Source: Nocardioides dokdonensis FR1436 (GTDB lineage Bacteria > Actinomycetota > Actinomycetes > Propionibacteriales > Nocardioidaceae). From it: a DNA stretch of 64,000 bases. The stretch is from contig NZ_CP015079.1 of assembly GCF_001653335.1 (NCBI RefSeq), positions 3,038,001 to 3,102,000 of the forward strand, in the 5' to 3' direction. Shown here piece by piece: positions 20,984 to 30,514 of the stretch; position 1 is the first letter of the stretch; every line of letters begins with the position of its first letter. The translations under genes and the position numbers were made by a program. The notes beneath the pieces were generated by a model. The model searched no databases. It was not told the DNA's origin and worked only from the letters and a program-made list of their open reading frames with translations.

Positions 20984-22284
20984 CCGCACCGACCACGACC
21001 CCCGGGGACCCCCTCGGAGCGACCACGGTCGCGGCCGTGCAGCGGCGTACCGTCGCCGTGCTGGTGCTGACCCAGGCGGTCGGCGCGGTGGGCATCACCA
21101 TCGGCATCGCGACCGCCTCCCTGCTCGCGCGCGACATCTCGGGCAGCGACGGGCAGGCCGGTCTGGCCCAGACCTTCCAGGTGCTCGGCGCCGCCCTGGC
21201 CTCCTACGTCCTGGCCCGGGTGATGGCGATGCGCGGGCGTCGCCTCGGGCTGACCACCGGCTACCTCCTCGGTGCCTGTGGTGCTGTGCTCGCCGTCGTC
21301 GCCGGCACCATCGACTCGATGGTCGTGCTGCTGCTGGGCGCGGTGCTGCTCGGTTCGACGACCGCCGCCAACAACGCCGCCCGGTACGCCGCCACCGACC
21401 TCGCCGAGCCGGCCCAGCGCGGCCGGGCGCTGGCGATCGTCGTGTGGGCCACCACGATCGGCGCGGTCGCGGGCCCCAACTTGACCGGCCCCGCCGCGGC
21501 CCTGGCCCGGTGGCTCGGGCTGCCCGAGCTGACGGGCCCCTTCGCGCTGGGCAGCATCGGCATGCTGCTGGCCGCCGCCCTCGTGAGCACCCTGCTGCGC
21601 CCCGACCCGCTGCTGCTGGCCCGCGAGGTCGCCGGCACCGCGGGCCAGGTGCCCTCGGGCACCTCGTGGGGCCGGGTGGTCGCCGCCGTGCGCGAGCGCC
21701 CGGTCCTGGTCGCCGCCGTCGTCGGCCTCGCCGGCGCGCACGCCGCGATGGTCGCGGTGATGGTGATGACCCCGCTGCACATGGAGCACGGGGGAGCCGA
21801 GCTGCGCATCATCGGTGTCGTCATCAGCGTCCACGTCCTCGGCATGTTCGCCTTCGCCCCCGTCGTGGGGTGGCTGGCCGACACGCTCGGCCGCCCGGTC
21901 ACCCTCGGCACCGGCGGCGTCGTCCTCGTCGTCGCGCTCGTCATCGCGGGCTCGGCCCCCGAGGGCTCGTCGTGGCAGATCTTCGGCGGCCTCTTCCTGC
22001 TCGGGCTGGGGTGGTCCTTCGCCACGGTCGCCGCCTCGACGCTGGTCGCCGACCACGCGCCGCTCGACGCCCGCGCCGACGTCCAGGGCGCGGCCGACCT
22101 GGTGATGAACCTGGTCGCCGCGGCCGGTGGTGGGCTCGCCGGCGTCGTCGTGGCGCTCGCCGGCTACCGCGCCCTGTCGCTGGGCACCGTCGCGCTGGGC
22201 CTGGCCGTCCTGGCGGCCGCGGTCGCCGCGCACCGCCTCACCCCCGTGGCGGCCGCGGAGCACCCGGGCCACCTGACAGAGTGA
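20980..22284 (+). CDS. MFS transporter
   Basis: Major facilitator superfamily protein of 434 residues with about twelve hydrophobic segments. Between helices 2 and 3 is VLARVMAMRGRRLGL (a loop-2-like basic motif), and a second half repeats the pattern around GWLADTLGRPVTLGTGG. The GTG start overlaps the DUF3046 stop. No substrate can be named; the nearby MTA phosphorylase does not by itself point to one. Confidence 0.85.
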   Translation: MTAPTTTPGDPLGATTVAAVQRRTVAVLVLTQAVGAVGITIGIATASLLARDISGSDGQAGLAQTFQVLGAALASYVLARVMAMRGRRLGLTTGYLLGACGAVLAVVAGTIDSMVVLLLGAVLLGSTTAANNAARYAATDLAEPAQRGRALAIVVWATTIGAVAGPNLTGPAAALARWLGLPELTGPFALGSIGMLLAAALVSTLLRPDPLLLAREVAGTAGQVPSGTSWGRVVAAVRERPVLVAAVVGLAGAHAAMVAVMVMTPLHMEHGGAELRIIGVVISVHVLGMFAFAPVVGWLADTLGRPVTLGTGGVVLVVALVIAGSAPEGSSWQIFGGLFLLGLGWSFATVAASTLVADHAPLDARADVQGAADLVMNLVAAAGGGLAGVVVALAGYRALSLGTVALGLAVLAAAVAAHRLTPVAAAEHPGHLTE

Positions 22285-22289
22285 GCGCC

Positions 22290-23111
22290 ATGAGCCAGAC
22301 GCGTGCAGACATCGCCGTGATCGGCGGCACCGGTTTCTACTCCTTCCTCGAGGACCCCGAGGAGGTGCGCGTCGAGACGCCGTACGGCGACCCCTCGGCG
22401 CCGGTCGCGATCGGCACCGTCGCCGGTCGCAGGGTCGCGTTCCTGCCGCGGCACGGCACCTCTCACGAGTACGCGCCGCACACCATCCCCTACCGCGCCA
22501 ACCTGTGGGCGCTGCGCTCCCTGGGCGTGCGCCAGGTGCTGGCGCCCTGCGCGGTGGGCGGGCTGCGGCCCGAGGTGGCCCCGGGCGACGTGGTGGTGCC
22601 CGACCAGCTGGTCGACCGCACCTACCGCCGGGTCCCGTCGTACGTCGAGGGCGGTGCGGTGCACCTGCCCTTCGGCGACCCCTACTGCGACCGGTTGTCC
22701 GCGGCGGTCGCCGGCACCGCCGACGACGTGCACCGCGGCGGCACGATGGTGATCATCGAGGGCCCCCGCTTCTCCACCCGCGCCGAGTCGCGCCACTACG
22801 CCGACCAGGGCTGGACCCTGATCAACATGACCGGGCACCCCGAGGCGGCGCTGGCCCGCGAGATGCGCCAGTGCTACACCCCGATCGCGCTGGTCACCGA
22901 CATGGACGCCGGCGCCGAGAGCGGTGCGGGCGTCGGCCAGGCGGAGGTCTTCGCACGCTTCAAGGCCAACCTCGAGCGGCTGACCGGTCTGCTCACCGAC
23001 GCGATCGCCGCGCTGCCCGACCCCGACGGCTGCTCCTGCTCGACCTGGGCCGACGGACTCGAGCTGACCTACTCGATCCCGGGCGAGGTCCCGGCGCCGG
23101 TGTTCCCGTGA
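22290..23111 (+). CDS. mtnP: S-methyl-5'-thioadenosine phosphorylase
   Basis: Purine-nucleoside-phosphorylase superfamily member that splits methylthioadenosine with phosphate into adenine and methylthioribose-1-phosphate. The phosphate-binding start IGGTGFYSFLED, the RHGTSHEYAPHTIPYRANLWAL block, and INMTGHPEAALAREM are all typical. At 273 residues the length is normal. The C-terminus ends with CSCSTWADG, a cysteine pair common in this group. ATG at 22290 is used. A 4-base overlap joins it to the epimerase gene. MTA arises from polyamine synthesis and radical-SAM reactions such as RimO. Confidence 0.85.
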   Translation: MSQTRADIAVIGGTGFYSFLEDPEEVRVETPYGDPSAPVAIGTVAGRRVAFLPRHGTSHEYAPHTIPYRANLWALRSLGVRQVLAPCAVGGLRPEVAPGDVVVPDQLVDRTYRRVPSYVEGGAVHLPFGDPYCDRLSAAVAGTADDVHRGGTMVIIEGPRFSTRAESRHYADQGWTLINMTGHPEAALAREMRQCYTPIALVTDMDAGAESGAGVGQAEVFARFKANLERLTGLLTDAIAALPDPDGCSCSTWADGLELTYSIPGEVPAPVFP

Positions 23112-24151
23112 AGGTCCTGCTCACCGGCTCGGCCGGGTTCATCGGCGGCGCCATCGGCGACCGGCTCGAGGCGTCGGGCGACGAGGTGGTGCGCGTCGAC
23201 CTGATGCTGCCGATGGCGCACGGATCCGTCACCGCGCCGTCCGGCACCCACCAGCTCGACGTCCGCGACGCCGACTCCTGGCCGGCCCTGCTCGACGGCG
23301 TCGACGTGGTGTGCCACCAGGCCGCGATGGTCGGCGCCGGTGTCACCGTCTCCGACCTGCCGCTGTACGCCGCCCACAACGATCTCGGCACCGCCGTGCT
23401 GCTGGCCGCGATGCACGAGGCCGGCGTGCACCGGCTGATCCAGGCCTCGAGCATGGTCGTCTACGGCGAGGGCCGCTACACCTGCCCCACGCACGGCGAC
23501 CAGGTGCCGCCGCCGCGTCCTCGCGAGGCCCTCGAGGCCGGCCGGTTCGGCAACCCCTGCCCGGTGTGCGGCGAGCCGCTGGGCTGGGCGCTCGTCGACG
23601 AGGACGCCCGCCTGGAGCCGCGCTCCAGCTACGCCGCCAGCAAGGTCGCGCAGGAGCACTACGCGACCGCGTGGGTGCGCCAGGCCGACGCCGCCGCGGT
23701 GTCGCTGCGCTACCACAACGTCTACGGGCCCGGCATGCCCCGCGACACGCCGTACTCCGGGGTCGCGGCGATGTTCCGCTCCTCGTTGGAGCGCGGCGAG
23801 GCGCCGAAGGTCTACGAGGACGGCGCGCAGATGCGCGACTTCGTGCACGTCGACGACGTCGCCCGGGCCAACGTGGCGGCGCTGCGAGCGGTGCTCGAGG
23901 CGCCCCAGGGCCACCACCGCGCCTACAACGTCGCCTCCGGGCACCCCGTGGGCATCCGCGACGTCGCGACCCTGGTCGCCCGCGGCACCGGCAGCGACCT
24001 GGAGCCTGAGGTGACCGGCGGCTACCGCCTCGGCGACGTCCGGCACATCGTGGCGTCCCCGCAGCGGGCCGCCGACGAGCTGGGCTTCACCGCCACGGTG
24101 CACCCCGACGTCGGCCTGGCCGCCTTCGCCACCGCCCCCCTGCGAGCCTGA
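23108..24151 (+). CDS. NAD-dependent sugar epimerase/dehydratase with Cys4 insert
   Basis: Extended short-chain dehydrogenase of 347 residues. The NAD site is GSAGFIGGAIG at about 7-17, the catalytic pair is Y/K in YAASKVAQEHY, and RYHNVYGPGMPRDTPYSGV matches nucleotide-sugar epimerases. Unusual is an insert of about 45 residues after VVYGEG containing CPTHGD and CPVCGE. These provide three cysteines plus histidine that could bind zinc. It is translationally coupled to mtnP. It may supply a nucleotide sugar for the glycosyltransferases that follow, which is inference. Confidence 0.83.
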   Translation: MKVLLTGSAGFIGGAIGDRLEASGDEVVRVDLMLPMAHGSVTAPSGTHQLDVRDADSWPALLDGVDVVCHQAAMVGAGVTVSDLPLYAAHNDLGTAVLLAAMHEAGVHRLIQASSMVVYGEGRYTCPTHGDQVPPPRPREALEAGRFGNPCPVCGEPLGWALVDEDARLEPRSSYAASKVAQEHYATAWVRQADAAAVSLRYHNVYGPGMPRDTPYSGVAAMFRSSLERGEAPKVYEDGAQMRDFVHVDDVARANVAALRAVLEAPQGHHRAYNVASGHPVGIRDVATLVARGTGSDLEPEVTGGYRLGDVRHIVASPQRAADELGFTATVHPDVGLAAFATAPLRA

Positions 24152-24152
24152 C

Positions 24153-24190
24153 CCGGCCCAGATGTCTCGCCGAGCCGGCGCAGATGTCCC
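24153..24190 (+). repeat. short direct repeat, 22-bp period
   Basis: CCGGCCCAGATGTCTC (24153-24168) and CCGGCGCAGATGTCCC (24175-24190) match at 14 of 16 bases between the convergent epimerase and membrane-protein genes. The second copy abuts the minus-strand stop codon. Function unknown. Confidence 0.5.
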
Positions 24191-25585
24191 TCACCAGGAC
24201 GTGTAGAGCAGGTGCTGGACCAGCACCGCCCAGACGATCTGCAGGGCGAGGCCCCACCGGCGCCACCCGGAGGGCAGCAGCGCGACCGCCAGGGTCAGGA
24301 ACGGGATGAACGGCAGCCAGATCCGCTCGACCTCCGACTTGCTCATCCGCGACAGGTCCGCGACCAGGACGGCGAGCACCGCGCCGAGGACCAGCAGCGC
24401 CACGATGCGCGTGTCGGGGCGCGCCTCCGGGCGTTGGTCGGGGCGCCCGTCGGGACTGCGGCGGGCACGCCGGGCGGCGTGCGCGAGACCGGCCCCCACC
24501 AGTGGACCCGCACTGACGGCGAGCGCGGCCAGGTTGCCCCACATCCAGTACCAGGCGGGCCGGTCGGCGGCGATGCCCTCCCAGTAGCGCTCGGTGAGCA
24601 CGGGGTAGGCCTCCCACCAGGCGAAGCCCGCGAGCGCCATCAGCAGCACGGGGACGAGCGCGGCTGCGACCACCACCGGCAGCGGGCGCCACGAGCGGGC
24701 GGCCAGCAGGACCGCGAGCGCGACCAGCCCCATCAGGCCCATGCCGTAGGACAGCAGCACCCCGCTGCCCAGGACGAGGCCCGCCCCCACCGACCAGGGC
24801 AGCCAGGCGCGACCGGTGCTCACCGCAGCCCGGGCCAGCAGCGCCAGACCGGCGGCCAGCACGGCGGCGAAGACGGCGTCGGCCGAGACGGCCATGAAGA
24901 CCGCGGCGGGGGAGAGGACCAGGAACGGTGCCGCGTCGCGGGCGAGCCGCTCCGCGCCCAGGGAGCGCACCAGCGCCAGCACCGAGACCACGGTCGTGGC
25001 GCCCACCACGGTGACGACGAGACCGGCGGCCAGCGACCCGCCCAGCCCGACCCGGACCAGACCGACGAAGAACAGCAGCGCCAACGGCGGGTGCCCGGCG
25101 GCCTGGGTGGGCCAGTTGTCGGGGTGGCTGTAGGGGATCCGGTCGATGTAGGTGCGCAGCATCTCCGGGACGTCGTCGACCTCGCGCGCGCTCGGCAGGT
25201 ACTCCGAGGAGTGGTCGAGGACCCGCGAGATCCCCTCGGGGCCGTCGACGAGGGCCAGCGAGAGCATCCAGGCCAGCGCCAGCACGTAGGACACCGCCAG
25301 GAGCCGGCCCCACGACGCGGAGGCGGCGAAGCGGGGGAACCACGCCCAGCCCAGGAGCGCGACGAGCAGCGTCGGTGCGGTCCCGGGCCCCACGAGCTTG
25401 GGCTCCCAGAAGCCGTGCAGCGGCGGTGCCGCCCAGGGGTGCGCCGAGCGGCTGGCCCGGCTCCAGGTCTCCCAGTCGAGCAGCACCGGCAGCGCGAACG
25501 CGGCCAGCACCAGCAGCAGCGCCAGCGCGAGCCCGGTGCCGGCCGCCCGCGAGCGGCGTACGGGCGCGGCGGGGGGTGAGGGCAT
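24191..25585 (-). CDS. polytopic membrane protein, GT-C glycosyltransferase-like
   Basis: Integral membrane protein of 464 residues with about ten to twelve hydrophobic helices. A large extracytoplasmic loop after the second or third helix carries LDHSSEYLPSAREVDDVPEM and RIPYSHPDNWPTQAAGHPPL. The pattern of acidic loop plus GHPPL resembles GT-C enzymes (mannosyltransferase/ArnT type), which use polyprenyl-phosphate sugars at the outer membrane face. The final segment RMSKSEVERIWLPFIPFL also resembles this group. It is convergent with the epimerase and divergent from GT2. Enzyme class is a fold-level guess. Confidence 0.65.
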   Translation of the reverse strand: MPSPPAAPVRRSRAAGTGLALALLLVLAAFALPVLLDWETWSRASRSAHPWAAPPLHGFWEPKLVGPGTAPTLLVALLGWAWFPRFAASASWGRLLAVSYVLALAWMLSLALVDGPEGISRVLDHSSEYLPSAREVDDVPEMLRTYIDRIPYSHPDNWPTQAAGHPPLALLFFVGLVRVGLGGSLAAGLVVTVVGATTVVSVLALVRSLGAERLARDAAPFLVLSPAAVFMAVSADAVFAAVLAAGLALLARAAVSTGRAWLPWSVGAGLVLGSGVLLSYGMGLMGLVALAVLLAARSWRPLPVVVAAALVPVLLMALAGFAWWEAYPVLTERYWEGIAADRPAWYWMWGNLAALAVSAGPLVGAGLAHAARRARRSPDGRPDQRPEARPDTRIVALLVLGAVLAVLVADLSRMSKSEVERIWLPFIPFLTLAVALLPSGWRRWGLALQIVWAVLVQHLLYTSW

Positions 25586-25639
25586 GCCCAGACCCTAGAG
25601 GCGAGGCCGGCACTGGGGGCCCGCCCCTAGGGTCGGGGC

Positions 25640-26296
25640 ATGGCTGTCGCTGATCTCGTCCTGCCCTGCCGCGACGAGGCACCCGCCCTCGAGGCACTGC
25701 TCCCGCTCATCCCGGAGGAGTTCTCGGTGATCGTCGTCGACAACGGCTCGCGCGACGCCACGGCCGAGGTGGCACAGCGGCTGGGTGCGCAGGTGGTCCG
25801 CGAGAGCGTGCCGGGCTACGGGGCGGCCGTGCACACCGGCCTGATGGCCGCCACCCACGAGTACGTCGCGTTCATGGACGGCGACGGCAGCTTCGACCCC
25901 GCGGAGCTGCTGGCGCTGCTCGACGACGTCGCGTCGGGCCGCGCCGACGTCGCAGTGGGTCGCCGGCGCCCGGTGGCACGAGGGGTGTGGCCCTGGCACG
26001 CCCGGATGGGCAATGCTCTCATCGTCGCCTGGTTGAGACGGAGGATCGCGATGGACGCGCACGACATCGCCCCCATGCGGGTGGCCCGTCGCCAGGCCCT
26101 GATCGACCTCGGGGTCGAGGACCGCCGCTTCGGCTACCCCGTCGAGCTGCTGCAGAAGCTCACCCTCGCCGGCTGGCGGGTCTCCGAGCGCGACATCGGC
26201 TACCACCCGCGGGCCGAGGGCACCCGGTCGAAGGTCTCGGGGTCCGTCAAGGGCACCGTGCGCACCGCCCGCGACTTCTGGCGGGTGCTCTCGTGA
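25640..26296 (+). CDS. glycosyltransferase family 2 protein
   Basis: Cytoplasmic GT-A transferase of 218 residues without membrane segments. Features: nucleotide-sugar binding start LVLPCRDEAPALEAL, VIVVDNGSRDATAEVA, and the metal-binding DxD as D80-G-D82 (AFMDGDGSFDP). It resembles dolichol-phosphate-mannose-synthase-like GT2 proteins in its short form. It begins a run of five genes overlapping by 4 bases each, ending with a membrane protein, so the products probably act together. A polyprenyl-phosphate sugar made here could feed the GT-C-like protein encoded divergently. Confidence 0.88.
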   Translation: MAVADLVLPCRDEAPALEALLPLIPEEFSVIVVDNGSRDATAEVAQRLGAQVVRESVPGYGAAVHTGLMAATHEYVAFMDGDGSFDPAELLALLDDVASGRADVAVGRRRPVARGVWPWHARMGNALIVAWLRRRIAMDAHDIAPMRVARRQALIDLGVEDRRFGYPVELLQKLTLAGWRVSERDIGYHPRAEGTRSKVSGSVKGTVRTARDFWRVLS

Positions 26297-26973
26297 CCCC
26301 TCCCCGGATGCTGCCCCGGATGCTGGTCGTCGCGAAGGCGCCCGTGGCCGGGAAGGTCAAGACCCGCCTGGGGGCCGACATCGGGCTCGAGGCGGCCGCC
26401 GAGGTGGCCGCCGCCTGCCTCCTGGACACCCTCGCCGCGTGCACCGAGGCCGTCGGCGCCAAGCACTGCCACCTCGACCTGGCCGGTGACCTCGCCGACG
26501 GCGTGCGCGCCGACGAGCTCGTGGCCGCGAGCGCCGGCTGGACCACCAGCCCGCAGCGCGGCGACGGCTTCGACGAGCGCCTGGCCCACGCCCACGCGTC
26601 GGTGGCCGCCACCGGCCCGGGCCCGGTCGTGCAGGTCGGCATGGACACCCCGCAGGTGACGCCCGCCCTGCTCCTCGACGCCGCCGCCGGGCTCGCCGAC
26701 CACGACGCCGTCCTGGGCCCCGCCGACGACGGCGGCTGGTGGGTGCTCGCGCTGCGGGACCCGCTCGCCGCGCAGGCGCTGGTCGGGGTCGAGATGTCCA
26801 CGCCGACGACGTACGACGACACCCGCGCCGCGCTCGAGGCCGCGGGCCTGCGGGTCGGCAGCACCGCCACCCTGCTCGACGTCGACACCGTCGCCGACGC
26901 CGAGGCCCTCCTGGCCGACGCCGCGCCCGGCGCCCGGTTCGCCGCCTCGTGGAAGGTGCTGGTGCCCCGATGA
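26293..26973 (+). CDS. DUF2064 / TIGR04282-type glycosyltransferase-like protein
   Basis: Nucleotidyltransferase/GT-A-like protein of 226 residues: MLVVAKAPVAGKVKTRLGADIGLE at the start is the family signature, followed by QRGDGFDERLAHA, VVQVGMDTPQVTP and GPADDGGWWVLAL. Databases often call this family arsenosugar biosynthesis glycosyltransferase, but no arsenic gene is present here, so that name should not be taken as function. GTG start overlaps the GT2 stop by 4 bases; its stop overlaps the methyltransferase start. The GKVKTRL motif suggests nucleotide or sugar-phosphate binding. Confidence 0.82.
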   Translation: MTPPRMLPRMLVVAKAPVAGKVKTRLGADIGLEAAAEVAAACLLDTLAACTEAVGAKHCHLDLAGDLADGVRADELVAASAGWTTSPQRGDGFDERLAHAHASVAATGPGPVVQVGMDTPQVTPALLLDAAAGLADHDAVLGPADDGGWWVLALRDPLAAQALVGVEMSTPTTYDDTRAALEAAGLRVGSTATLLDVDTVADAEALLADAAPGARFAASWKVLVPR

Positions 26974-27617
26974 TCCAGCGCGACGAACCGTTCTCGACCG
27001 TCTTCGCCCGTGCCCTGCAGGGCATCCCGTGCCGGGTCGTCGGCCTCGACGACGGGCCCTCCGTCCTGCCGATGGGGGAGTGGACCCGCGAGGCGGACGA
27101 GCAGGACCTCGCCGTGCTGGCGCACTGCAGCGGCCCCACCCTCGACATCGGGTGCGGCCCCGGCCGGATGACCGCGAGCCTGGCCCGGATGGGCCACCAG
27201 GTCCTCGGGATCGACGTGGTCCCCGAGGCCGTCGAGCAGACCCGGCAGCGCGGGGTCCCGGCGCTGCTGCGCGACCTCTACGACGCCCTGCCCGACGAGG
27301 GGCGCTGGGAGACCGTGCTCCTGGCCGACGGCAACGTCGGCATCGGCGGCGACCCGGTGGCGCTGCTGCGACGCTCGCGCGAGCTCCTCGGGAGCTTCGG
27401 CCGCGTCGTGGTCGAGGTCGCGGCGCCCGGGACGGCGCTGAGCACCCGGTGGGTCACCCTCGAGGCCGGCGAGGCGCGCAGCCGTCCCTTCCGCTGGTCG
27501 GTGGTCGGGGCCGACGACATCGCGACCGTCGCCGCCAAGGCCGGTCTGGGAGTGACGACCTGCACCGGCGTGGGCAGCGGCGACCGCTGGGTCTCCGTGC
27601 TGCAGGTGCGCGGATGA
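26970..27617 (+). CDS. class I SAM-dependent methyltransferase
   Basis: Rossmann-fold methyltransferase, 215 residues, with motif I LDIGCGPGRMTASLA at about 58-72 and motif II region VLGIDVVPEAVEQTR. The N-terminal 45 residues (FARALQGIPCRVVGLDDG, PSVLPMGEWTREAD) are specific to a group encoded beside DUF2064 and molybdopterin oxidoreductase genes. Coupled by ATGA overlaps on both sides. Acceptor unknown. Confidence 0.85.
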   Translation: MIQRDEPFSTVFARALQGIPCRVVGLDDGPSVLPMGEWTREADEQDLAVLAHCSGPTLDIGCGPGRMTASLARMGHQVLGIDVVPEAVEQTRQRGVPALLRDLYDALPDEGRWETVLLADGNVGIGGDPVALLRRSRELLGSFGRVVVEVAAPGTALSTRWVTLEAGEARSRPFRWSVVGADDIATVAAKAGLGVTTCTGVGSGDRWVSVLQVRG

Positions 27618-28822
27618 GCGCATCACTGCGGCTGCCCGACGAACGCTCCTTCTCGACCCGGCTGCGCAGTGCCGCGGTCGCGGCCCGGGTCGGCACCGTG
27701 CTGGGCGTGTGCTTCGCGCTGGCCTTCCTGACCGGGCTGGTCAGCCACTACGCCCAGAACCCCACCCAGCCGGTCCCGTTCCCGACCAGTCCCGCGTGGG
27801 GCTACCGACTCACCCAGGGGCTGCACATCATCAGCGGCACCGCCGCGGTGCCGCTGCTCCTGGTCAAGCTCTGGACCGTCTACCCGCTGCTGCTGGCCCG
27901 CCCGTCCCTGCGCCTGCGCCGCCTCGCGGTCGAGCTCGCCGAGCGGCTCTCGATCCTCCTGCTCGTCGGCGCCGCGCTGTTCCTGCTGGTCACCGGGCTG
28001 CAGAACATCAGCCACTGGTACCCCTGGGCGTTCTCCTTCCGCTCCACCCACTACGCGATGGCCTGGATCGCGATCGGATCGCTGGTCCTGCACGTCGCGG
28101 TCAAGCTGCCGCTGGTGCGGCACGCGCTGACCCACGACGTCGACGACACCACCCTCGACCGGCCCGGCGCGGCCGAGCCGGGCGCGGCCGAGCCGGGCGC
28201 GGCCGAGCCGGCTGCGGCCGGACCCGGTGCCCTGGGCCGCCGCGGCCTCCTGCGGGCGACGTGGCTGGCCACCGGCGCGGTGGTGCTCGCGACCGCAGGG
28301 TCGACGGTGCCGTTCCTGCGCTGGGTCTCCGTCCTGGCGGTGCGCTCGGGCGAGGGCCCGCAGGGCGTGCCGGTCAACAAGACCGCCGAAGACGCCGGGG
28401 TCACCGAGGCCGCACAGGACCCGGCGTACCGCCTCGAGGTGGTGCACGGCGAGCGCAGCGTCTCCTTGGACCGCGACGACCTCCTGGCCCTGCCGCAGCG
28501 CAGCGAGGAGCTGCCGATCGCCTGCGTCGAGGGCTGGAGCGCCTCCGGCACCTGGAGCGGCGTCCGGCTGCGCGACCTCCTCGACCTGGTCGAGGCCCCC
28601 CAGGACGTCGAGGTGGTCCTCACCTCGCTGCAGGAGTCGGGGCCGTTCCGGGTGACGCTGCTGCAGAGCGGCTTCGTCGACGACGACCGGACCCTGGTGG
28701 CGCTGGGCCTGGCCGGGTCGCCGCTCGACCTCGACCACGGCTACCCGGCCCGCCTGATCGCACCCAACCGACCCGGCGTGCTGCAGACCAAGTGGCTGAG
28801 CCGCATCGAGGTGCGGACGTGA
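27614..28822 (+). CDS. cytochrome b561-like / sulfite-oxidase-type molybdopterin oxidoreductase fusion
   Basis: Membrane-anchored molybdenum enzyme, 402 residues. The first ~180 residues hold four hydrophobic helices with histidines (LHIISG, NISHWYPW, STHYAMAW, VLHVAVKL) spaced as heme-b ligands. A proline/alanine linker of PGAAE repeats follows, then one more helix (LATGAVVLATAGSTVPFL). The C-terminal domain about 265-402 is sulfite-oxidase-like with the molybdenum-ligating Cys304 in PIACVEGWSASGTW. This is a natural fusion of what are separate YedY-type catalytic and YedZ-type heme subunits elsewhere. Substrate unknown; methionine sulfoxide or another S/N-oxide is possible. Confidence 0.82.
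   Translation: MSASLRLPDERSFSTRLRSAAVAARVGTVLGVCFALAFLTGLVSHYAQNPTQPVPFPTSPAWGYRLTQGLHIISGTAAVPLLLVKLWTVYPLLLARPSLRLRRLAVELAERLSILLLVGAALFLLVTGLQNISHWYPWAFSFRSTHYAMAWIAIGSLVLHVAVKLPLVRHALTHDVDDTTLDRPGAAEPGAAEPGAAEPAAAGPGALGRRGLLRATWLATGAVVLATAGSTVPFLRWVSVLAVRSGEGPQGVPVNKTAEDAGVTEAAQDPAYRLEVVHGERSVSLDRDDLLALPQRSEELPIACVEGWSASGTWSGVRLRDLLDLVEAPQDVEVVLTSLQESGPFRVTLLQSGFVDDDRTLVALGLAGSPLDLDHGYPARLIAPNRPGVLQTKWLSRIEVRT
28163..28219 (+). repeat. in-frame 15-bp tandem repeat in the linker
   Basis: Three near-identical 15-base units (CCGGGCGCGGCCGAG type) and a degenerate fourth encode PGAAE repeats in the linker between the heme and molybdenum domains. Length variation between strains would be expected. 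Confidence 0.85.
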
Positions 28823-29244
28823 GCCCCGGCCGTCTCCTGCTCGGCGCCGCCGGCGCGTCGGTGACGGCGTACGGCGCCTGGTTGCTCTGGTCGCGCCGCG
28901 AGCCGGCCGACGTGCTCGACGCCGCCGTGTGGGCCGGGGGTGCGGTGCTGGTGCACGACGTGCTGCTCGCAGCCGTGCTCCTGCTCGCGGGGCTGGTGCT
29001 CGCCCGGCTGGTCCCGGCCGTGGCCCGGGCCCCGGTCGTGGTGGGCGCCGTCGTGCTCGGCAGCCTGAGCCTGGTCGCGGTGCCCGTGCTCGGCAGCTGG
29101 GGGCGCGACACCGACCCGACCAACGAGACGCTGCTCGACCGCGACTACGTCGCCGGGTGGTGGGTGCTGGCGGCGCTGGTGGCCGCGGGCGTGCTCGTCG
29201 GGGTGGCCGTGCGCCTCCTCCGCGCCCGGCACGCGCGTCCCTGA
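28819..29244 (+). CDS. small integral membrane protein, unknown function
   Basis: Protein of 141 residues with about four hydrophobic helices ([79 protein letters not shown]). An extracytoplasmic loop [19 protein letters not shown] is the most polar part. I recognise no family with confidence. GTG start overlaps the stop of the molybdopterin protein by 4 bases, so it may be an accessory subunit of that enzyme. Confidence 0.72.
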
Positions 29245-29252
29245 GACCCGCT

Positions 29253-29270
29253 CGCCCGGCCGGCCGGGCG
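29253..29270. terminator. GC palindrome after the molybdenum operon
   Basis: Perfect 18-base palindrome CGCCCGGCCGGCCGGGCG starting 8 bases after the operon stop and just before the recA control region. It could fold as a hairpin with a 4-base loop. Confidence 0.5.
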
Positions 29271-29293
29271 ACACGCCGACCCTGCCTCCCACC

Positions 29294-29309
29294 TCGAACA
29301 GGTGTTCGG
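29294..29309. promoter_or_regulatory. LexA (SOS) box of recA
   Basis: TCGAACAGGTGTTCGG matches the actinobacterial SOS consensus TCGAAC-N4-GTTCGA with one mismatch at the last base. A -10-like TACAGT lies at 29312-29317, so LexA bound here would cover the recA promoter. RecA genes are classical LexA targets. Confidence 0.88.
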
Positions 29310-29461
29310 CCTACAGTAGGTGCACAGGTGACGCGCAGGACGCCGTTCCCCACAGGCCCGGGCTCCCGGCCCGGTCTTGTCGGTGGTCCCCTCTAGCGTC
29401 GGCCACGACGACAGACCACATGACCGCGGGGCCGCCGGCCCCGCACACGGACGGAGACATC

Positions 29462-30514
29462 ATGGCTGGTGCAGACCGCGACAAGGCGCTCGACGCCGCA
29501 CTGCTCAACATCGAGAAGCAGTTCGGCAAGGGTTCGGTGATGCGCCTCGGTGACGAGACGCGCGCCCCCCTCGAAGTCATCCCCACGGGCTCGATCGCCC
29601 TCGACGTGGCCCTGGGCCTCGGTGGGCTGCCGCGCGGTCGCGTGGTGGAGATCTACGGCCCAGAGTCCTCGGGAAAGACCACGGTCGCGCTGCACGCGGT
29701 GGCCAACGCCCAGGCCGCCGGCGGCATCGTGGCGTTCATCGACGCCGAGCACGCGCTGGACCCCGACTACGCCAAGAACCTCGGCGTCGACACCGACGCA
29801 CTGCTGGTCTCGCAGCCCGACTCGGGTGAGCAGGCCCTCGAGATCGCCGACATGCTCGTGCGCTCGGGTGCCCTCGACCTCATCGTCATCGACTCCGTGG
29901 CCGCGCTCGTGCCCCGCGCCGAGATCGAGGGCGAGATGGGTGACAGCCACGTCGGCCTCCAGGCCCGGCTGATGAGCCAGGCGCTGCGCAAGATGACCGG
30001 TGCCCTGAACAACTCGAACACCACCGCGATCTTCATCAACCAGCTGCGCGAGAAGATCGGCGTCATGTTCGGCTCGCCCGAGACCACCACCGGTGGTCGG
30101 GCGCTGAAGTTCTACTCCTCGGTGCGCCTCGACGTGCGCCGCATCGAGACGCTCAAGGACGGCCAGGACATGGTCGGCAACCGCACCCGCTGCAAGGTGG
30201 TCAAGAACAAGGTCGCGCCGCCGTTCAAGCAGGCCGAGTTCGACATCATGTACGGCAAGGGCATCAGCCGCGAGGGCGGTCTGATCGACGTGGGCGTCGA
30301 GGCGGGCCTGGTGCGCAAGGCCGGCGCTTGGTACACCTACGAGGGCGACCAGCTCGGCCAGGGCAAGGAGAACGCGCGGACCTTCCTGCGCGACAACCCC
30401 GACCTGGCCAACGAGCTGGAGAAGAAGATCCTGGAGAAGCTCGGGGTCGGCCCGCAGGTCGACGCCGAGGTCCCCGCCGAGCTCGCCGAGCCTGTGGGTG
30501 TCGACGACTTCTGA
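29462..30514 (+). CDS. recA: recombinase RecA
   Basis: ATP-dependent strand-exchange protein and co-protease for Lex[17 protein letters not shown] start, Walker A at 66-73 (GPESSGKTT), and the L2 region [20 protein letters not shown] are intact. No intein is present. At 350 residues the length is normal. The ATG at 29462 has GGAG 5 bases upstream; upstream codons in the ORF belong to the leader. A LexA box precedes it, and recX follows, overlapping or nearly so. Confidence 0.98.

Follow-up and report, generated by a model that had tools for sequence, protein, structure and literature searches.

The synthesis of mycobacterial methylthioxylose (MTX) starts from 5'-methylthioadenosine (MTA) and involves a donor based on decaprenyl phosphate and an enzyme of the GT-C type, and the existence of MTX addition outside the assembly of lipoarabinomannan (LAM) was called unclear in 2024 (PMC11127046). 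The MTX genes of Mycobacterium tuberculosis are MtxS, Rv0539, and MtxT, Rv0541c (PMC8780516). In LAM, MTX is partly present as its sulfoxide, MSX (PMC8531672), and antioxidant properties have been proposed for the sugar. Here we describe a cluster of eight genes, running from an MTA phosphorylase gene (mtnP) to the gene of a small membrane protein (SMP) and preceding recA, in Nocardioides dokdonensis FR1436. The window analyzed is a stretch of 64,000 nucleotides (contig NZ_CP015079.1, positions 3,038,001 to 3,102,000 of the forward strand) of a complete genome (one contig, 4.38 Mb, completeness 100).

The cluster probably makes and maintains a 5-deoxy-5-methylthio-pentofuranose decoration, of the MTX type, on a cell-surface glycan, a fusion protein with heme-b and molybdenum (Mo) domains acting as sulfoxide reductase. 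Judged from the sequences, the mtnP, epimerase, GT2, DUF2064 and GT-C genes correspond to the mycobacterial MTX genes, and this core is known in kind. A preliminary description of the locus had presented it as the best candidate for an undescribed system in the window, which is only half right, since the core matches the MTX genes. New are the presence of the core in a Nocardioides-type genome lacking an Emb match and the methyltransferase/Mo module joined to it, neither of which was found described.

In the literature searched, which most subscription journals lie beyond, none of the papers listed assigns MTX to a non-mycobacterial glycan in its title or opening abstract lines, none of those listed joins MTX and Sco3746, and no paper was found that links Rv0218 with a molybdoenzyme or deals with DUF2064 or XhnM1. 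PMC11233589 contains both an MTX word and 'molybd', which there belongs to a reagent for staining, and 'sulfoxide reductase' occurs in PMC10503756 and PMC5911930 in a reference title.

Organization of the locus

The features of the cluster are as follows:
22290..23111, + strand: mtnP, S-methyl-5'-thioadenosine (MTA) phosphorylase (NF005876 model)
23108..24151, + strand: NAD-dependent sugar epimerase of the short-chain dehydrogenase/reductase (SDR) type (PF01370, 155.8 bits)
24191..25585, - strand: GT-C-like membrane glycosyltransferase in the MtxT position (PMT_2, 25.0 bits, below the cut-off of 26.1)
25586..25639, no strand: 54-bp spacer separating the divergently oriented GT-C and GT2 genes and probably containing the promoter region, judged from coordinates
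25640..26296, + strand: GT2 in the MtxS position (PF00535, Glycos_transf_2, 77 bits)
26293..26973, + strand: DUF2064 protein, nucleotidylyltransferase-like (PF09837, 96 bits)
26970..27617, + strand: class I S-adenosylmethionine-dependent methyltransferase, MT (Methyltransf_25, 38.3 bits)
27614..28822, + strand: heme-b/Mo fusion, MO, Sco3746-type (PF00174, Oxidored_molyb, 80.6 bits)
28819..29244, + strand: small membrane protein, SMP, probably accessory to the Mo fusion (no family match)

The Glycos_transf_2, DUF2064 and Oxidored_molyb scores are all above the Pfam cut-offs; a Ni_hydr_CYTB match has 23.8 bits, slightly under its cut-off of 30.1. Overlaps of 4 bp (ATGA or GTGA) are found at five junctions, mtnP/epimerase and all four within the GT2-DUF2064-MT-MO-SMP run. 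The preliminary description had set the unit at 23108-29244, with an epimerase, a GT-C-like protein and an overlapping five-gene run. The coordinates of these genes and the four overlaps of the run were confirmed; the start was set too late, and left out mtnP, the key clue. The overlap of the mtnP stop and the epimerase start, at 23108-23111, joins the gene of the sulfur-nucleoside enzyme to those of the sugar pathway, and the unit starts one gene upstream of the epimerase, at mtnP. A recent genomic island was considered and found no sign in base composition, GC being 0.74-0.75 in the four 2-kb bins of 22001-30000 and 0.68-0.76 window-wide.

Correspondence with the methylthioxylose genes

Mycobacterium sp. 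GA-1199 (locus L105) carries mtnP and the epimerase gene, followed after some other genes by GT2 (+), DUF2064 (+) and GT-C (-), an arrangement that agrees with the gene numbers, and the strand they indicate, of MtxS (Rv0539) and MtxT (Rv0541c; PMC8780516). Identity to the L105 proteins is 54-56% for mtnP, 60-61% for the epimerase, 58-59% for GT2, 47-50% for DUF2064 and 41-44% for GT-C; the epimerase is 60-64% identical to its orthologues in L105 and L109 (Mycolicibacterium). Orthology to the M. tuberculosis genes is drawn through L105, L109 and the published gene numbers. We take the mtnP, epimerase and DUF2064 genes of M. tuberculosis to be Rv0535, Rv0536 and Rv0540.

Features of the MTX pathway are recognized in the host. 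That an MTA phosphorylase supplies the sugar is indicated by the NF005876 match (400 bits, cut-off 306) and the epimerase overlap, the best solved-structure matches of MtnP being the MTA phosphorylases 9vs8 and 1wta. A GT2 making a polyprenyl-phosphate donor is recognized by similarity alone, to the dolichol-phosphate mannose synthase 5mlz, its best solved match (E 1.4e-14), and to the L105 protein. The acceptor may differ. No match to PF04602 (Emb arabinosyltransferase) was found in the complete host genome, a search that did not extend to other arabinosyl- and mannosyltransferases, so arabinan of the LAM type presumably is neither made in this organism nor serves as the acceptor; judged from the same absence, a LAM mannose cap as acceptor is not indicated.

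In the epimerase, at least 95% of the 77 rows of the alignment retain both Y175-x3-K179 and a CxxH...CxxC insertion (C126/H129/C151/C154; residues 126-154, window 23483-23569). The insertion looks like a zinc-binding element, and to our knowledge is unusual for the SDR epimerase family. In GT-C, H165-P166-P167, D236 and R421 are conserved, as are H46-D47, P89 and R108 in 67 rows of SMP, a protein that has no match in Pfam or NCBIfam-type family models.

Residues 21-206 of the DUF2064 protein align to the CofC model TIGR03552 (34.4 bits, E 1.6e-8, cut-off 105), and its structure-database matches include 3cgx (E 1.4e-25) and the CofC protein 6bwg (E 0.0059). All 25 rows compared share K15, G20, KTRL 23-26, GMDTPQ 116-121 and DGGWW 146-150. 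From the CofC alignment and the invariant residues the protein would be a nucleotidylyltransferase acting on a sugar-1-phosphate, and the same logic would explain DUF2064 beside GT2 in pairs labelled as arsenosugar genes.

Conservation and co-occurrence

Named genomes were scanned by DUF2064 similarity, and the best 80 of 182 loci, up to 20.7 kb each, were analyzed. Most belong to Nocardioides and close kin, and some end at contig ends; the nearest named ones among the 80, by DUF2064 protein, are those of Nocardioides cremeus (77%) and N. kribbensis (73%). By profile search GT2 was found in 80 loci, GT-C in 79, the epimerase in 77, MT in 75, MO in 74, SMP in 67, mtnP in 60 and recA in 29. Twenty of the 80 loci reside outside Nocardioides-type genera, in Amycolatopsis, Micromonospora, Saccharopolyspora, Actinophytocola, Kutzneria, Actinokineospora, Lentzea, Phycicoccus, Nostocoides, Brevibacterium, Microlunatus, Mycobacterium and Mycolicibacterium. 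Gene order varies in these loci, MO being placed elsewhere in L089, L091 and L098, and MO and MT both relocated in L110, as also in L048 of the Nocardioidaceae. MT is absent and MO kept in L096, L103 and L108, and both are absent from L105. MO has no match in six of the 80 loci, three of which (L067, L086, L107) end too early to judge. The DUF2064 protein was matched in 97/149 genomes of the family of the host.

A sample of 197 Actinomycetota genomes was searched with the MO alignment to avoid selection by DUF2064 (thresholds: MO above 200 bits, GT2 E <= 1e-45, MT E <= 1e-35, mtnP E <= 1e-75). MO was found in 27 genomes, spread over 12 families, and GT2 in 38. GT2 is present in all 27 MO genomes (Fisher p ~1e-24), and MO in 24 of the 25 MT genomes (p ~2e-26), values that take no account of phylogeny; MO occurs without MT in three genomes (G161, G201, G231). 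Around 29 MO copies outside the host, chosen without regard to their neighbours and viewed over ~10 kb, at least three of the GT2, DUF2064, MT, GT-C and epimerase genes were found at 21, in several arrangements.

The core occurs patchily across Actinomycetota, and its genes do not assort independently in relatives, either in the 80 loci or around the 29 MO copies. The proposal of the preliminary description that the genes form one pathway gains from their being together in many lineages and several arrangements, and it was also right in seeing sugar transfer coupled to an enzyme of the sulfite-oxidase fold.

In L048 MT, MO and SMP have moved together to the other side of mtnP, which suggests a separable module. 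In four genomes of family f4, possibly mycobacteria (L141, L145, L146, L150), MT and MO lie between DUF2064 and GT-C, or away from GT2; set beside L105, with neither nearby, they indicate gain or loss among relatives.

The molybdenum/heme-b fusion

MO has the features of the Sco3746 family, whose members are membrane proteins with dual insertion by Sec and Tat, as defined in PMC5449189. It has a four-helix heme-b domain, a twin arginine followed by a fifth transmembrane (TM) helix, and an extracytoplasmic C-terminal Mo domain, and five long helices are seen in the predicted model (pLDDT 81.7). The marks of the family, five TM helices, a twin arginine before TM5, heme histidines and a C-terminal Mo domain, are all found, and H71, H146, H160, R209-R210 and C304 are invariant in 24/24 aligned rows. 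MoaA is present in the host genome.

Five of the 24 aligned rows (L089, L091, L100, L106, L110) represent a long form of MO, with 14 extra residues between TM1 and TM2 (35, against 21 in the window); the search pattern misfits in 5 rows. The TM4-TM5 linker (window 28160-28225) is a short tandem repeat of GAAEP units, residues 192-198 being gapped in 72/74 rows.

The Mo domain gives two different signals. Taken whole, it is closer by score to sulfite oxidases and SoxC than it is to MsrP, the best solved-structure sequence match being sulfite oxidase 1ogp (E 6.6e-14; MsrP 1xdq, E 3.1e-7) and the top Foldseek match a sulfite dehydrogenase/oxidase (2ca3, 2.6e-7; 1xdq, 1.4e-6). MO reaches no NCBIfam cut-off: MsrP model NF003767 gives 30 bits (cut-off 207), and the sulfite dehydrogenase models SoxC, SorA and SorT give 37.9, 21.9 and 18.4 (cut-offs 420, 600 and 570). 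The SoxC match, which is higher than that of the MsrP model, begins at residue 302 and so takes in the Mo cysteine 304. On this evidence the core could make a methylthio-sugar while the fusion works oxidatively, forming the sulfoxide or acting on sulfite or some other small sulfur compound, with quinone as the electron acceptor. We regard this as unlikely. The Mo-ligand loop, CVEGWSxxxxWxG, aligns gap-free to CVEAWS...W-G of Escherichia coli MsrP, and a stricter form of the loop pattern fits 23/24 MO rows. The sulfite oxidase matches begin past the loop, at profile position 293 or later, whereas the 1xdq match spans it (252-383). No dimerization domain is among the Pfam families matched by the 24 MO rows, and redox potentials favour reduction of a sulfoxide by menaquinol over oxidation of a thioether by menaquinone. 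As to the class of the Mo domain, the loop points to MsrP and the overall scores to sulfite oxidase.

In L092, L094, L087, L089, L142, L155 and other loci, open reading frames resembling a histidine kinase and a response regulator, read by eye, separate the epimerase gene from GT-C or flank the cluster; none is found at this place in the window. Sorted without family search, the kinase group, probably mixed, was counted in 26/47 loci and the regulator group in 14/47.

Source of the sugar

In the host genome no match was found to MtnA or to an MTA/S-adenosylhomocysteine nucleosidase, so that neither of these known steps would lead the MtnP product back to methionine. In the 197 genomes mtnP is present in 107; it is found in 24/27 MO genomes, in 24/25 MT genomes and in 29/38 GT2 genomes, and in 25/27 of those with GT2 matches of at least 250 bits, a line drawn afterwards, against 82/170 of the others. 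GT2 was found in 19/36 genomes having mtnP and lacking mtnA, against 10/71 having both. The idea that the MtnP product is reserved for this cluster alone agrees with the host genome, as judged by the two families searched, but does not hold generally: ten genomes have MtnP, MtnA and GT2 together, and diversion of MTA is not exclusive.

The cluster might make another 5-modified, or a plain, pentose glycoconjugate, with mtnP adjacent through inherited gene order only. Outside Nocardioides-type genomes mtnP lies at most 9 kb away in only 3/20 loci (L105, L106, L109), and in seven genomes of family f3 it is distant from GT2 or on another contig. Yet in the same three loci mtnP adjoins the epimerase, though both moved relative to GT2. 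The enrichment of mtnP with strong GT2 matches, and the identity of the corresponding mycobacterial genes as MTX genes (PMC8780516), likewise make this alternative improbable.

An arsenosugar product, suggested by the family names TIGR04282 and TIGR04283 for DUF2064 and GT2, and by arsenosugars being likewise 5-deoxy-5-substituted pentofuranosides, is scarcely credible. As the preliminary description had held, the label is unsupported: both cut-offs are missed (130.8 bits against 134 and 38.1 against 182), no radical-SAM family or arsenic-specific enzyme is among the above-cut-off matches of the eight proteins, and MtnP supplies sulfur. Chance neighbourhood of independent genes, to which the differing gene orders and the absence of some members in some genomes might point, is refuted for practical purposes by the five overlaps, the conservation across 80 loci and the co-occurrence in 197 genomes.

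Proposed pathway

The methylthiopentose pathway preferred here would run as follows. By its family model, MtnP would cleave MTA to 5-methylthioribose-1-phosphate, which the CofC-like DUF2064 protein may activate to a nucleoside diphosphate (NDP) sugar. The epimerase could turn the NDP-methylthiopentose from ribo to xylo; ribose and xylose differ at C3. From their correspondence with MtxS and MtxT, GT2 would place the methylthiopentose on polyprenyl phosphate, and GT-C would move it from the lipid carrier to a surface glycan outside the membrane. Electrons of the quinol pool would pass through heme b of the fusion to the Mo domain outside the membrane, and there a sugar methyl sulfoxide may be returned to the thioether, as MsrPQ does with methionine sulfoxide. 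The outcome would be a surface thioether open to oxidation and renewal.

MT may put a further methyl on the sugar or on an intermediate of the pathway, at an unspecified site. Its predicted model is confident (pLDDT 95.8) and its best sequence and fold matches are XhnM1 (9klx/9khp) and 5bp9; the searches also return assorted O-, N-, C- and S-methyltransferases, which point to no single substrate. Its part as a tailoring enzyme is the weakest step of the proposed pathway.

Support is good for the sugar pathway. For the Mo enzyme, we infer that it works as reductase and that its substrate is a methylthio-sugar sulfoxide, on the grounds of the loop at the active site, the chemistry of sulfur and the genetic linkage. 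The indirect route of the orthology and the Mo-domain scores weigh against the proposal, as do several further points. The MTX-type product, the activities and the mutant effects are here predicted from genes alone, and MSX in LAM could come from air oxidation. MO is absent from L036, L088 and L105, loci long enough to show it, and from 11/38 GT2 genomes (3/27 at GT2 matches of at least 250 bits), so it is not needed for making the sugar. DUF2064 is patchy in the genus of the host (22/36 genomes). Fewer than three pathway neighbours were found at 8/29 MO copies, with one or two at L145, L146, L157, L158 and L160, and none at L147, L156 and L153, the last a 4-kb contig. Seventeen genomes having mtnP and lacking mtnA have no GT2, the ten genomes with MtnP, MtnA and GT2 include seven of family f3, and three MO genomes (G161, G201, G265) have no mtnP match at the threshold.

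L147, the second MO copy of genome G241, and L156 have no core gene within ~10 kb, and may be paralogues with a different substrate.

A wider reading, offered tentatively, is that in many Actinomycetota, beyond the makers of LAM, a surface methylthiopentose is a renewable oxidant trap restored by a Mo/heme-b sulfoxide reductase of the Sco3746 family. If so, the thioether would be oxidized by reactive oxygen or chlorine species and restored by electrons of the quinol pool, and the sulfoxide reductase would be encoded alongside the genes making the carbohydrate it repairs. A 2009 paper, listed among the references of PMC10503756, reportedly concerns a carbohydrate substrate of M. tuberculosis MsrA. 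Should the Mo enzyme reduce MTX sulfoxide, surface sugar chemistry would join the defence against oxidative stress. The locus and its relatives predict MTX addition outside LAM assembly, in easily grown genera. They offer a substrate hypothesis for Sco3746-type Mo proteins and a testable function, as 5-methylthioribose-1-phosphate nucleotidylyltransferase, for a DUF2064 protein.

Comparison with described systems

With the arsenosugar genes TIGR04282 and TIGR04283 the cluster shares the DUF2064 and GT2 pair and an analogous 5-substituted pentofuranose chemistry; it differs in falling below both cut-offs and in having a source of sulfur, not of arsenic. With the MTX pathway it has in common mtnP, the epimerase gene, GT2, DUF2064 and GT-C, at 40-64% identity to the genes of L105 and L109, and the GT-C gene is on the opposite strand next to DUF2064/GT2 in the window. 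In contrast, MT, the Mo/heme-b fusion and SMP are joined to the operon here, as also in L109 and not in L105, and the host has no Emb-type match, the acceptor presumably not being LAM arabinan.

MO and the Sco3746 family agree in having five TM helices, a twin arginine ahead of TM5, histidines that are conserved and a Mo domain at the C-terminus; the accessible part of PMC5449189 gives no substrate, and its main text does not contain the words glycosyl or operon, whereas here the protein is tied to a sugar pathway. MsrPQ resembles the fusion in the Mo-cysteine loop outside the membrane, in the heme-b membrane partner, in quinol as likely donor and in having two-component system genes close by (hprSR beside msrPQ in E. 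coli, a putative kinase and regulator in relatives of this cluster). Unlike MsrPQ, the N. dokdonensis enzyme is one fused polypeptide with a b561-like membrane part, scores far under the MsrP cut-off, and is tied to sugar genes.

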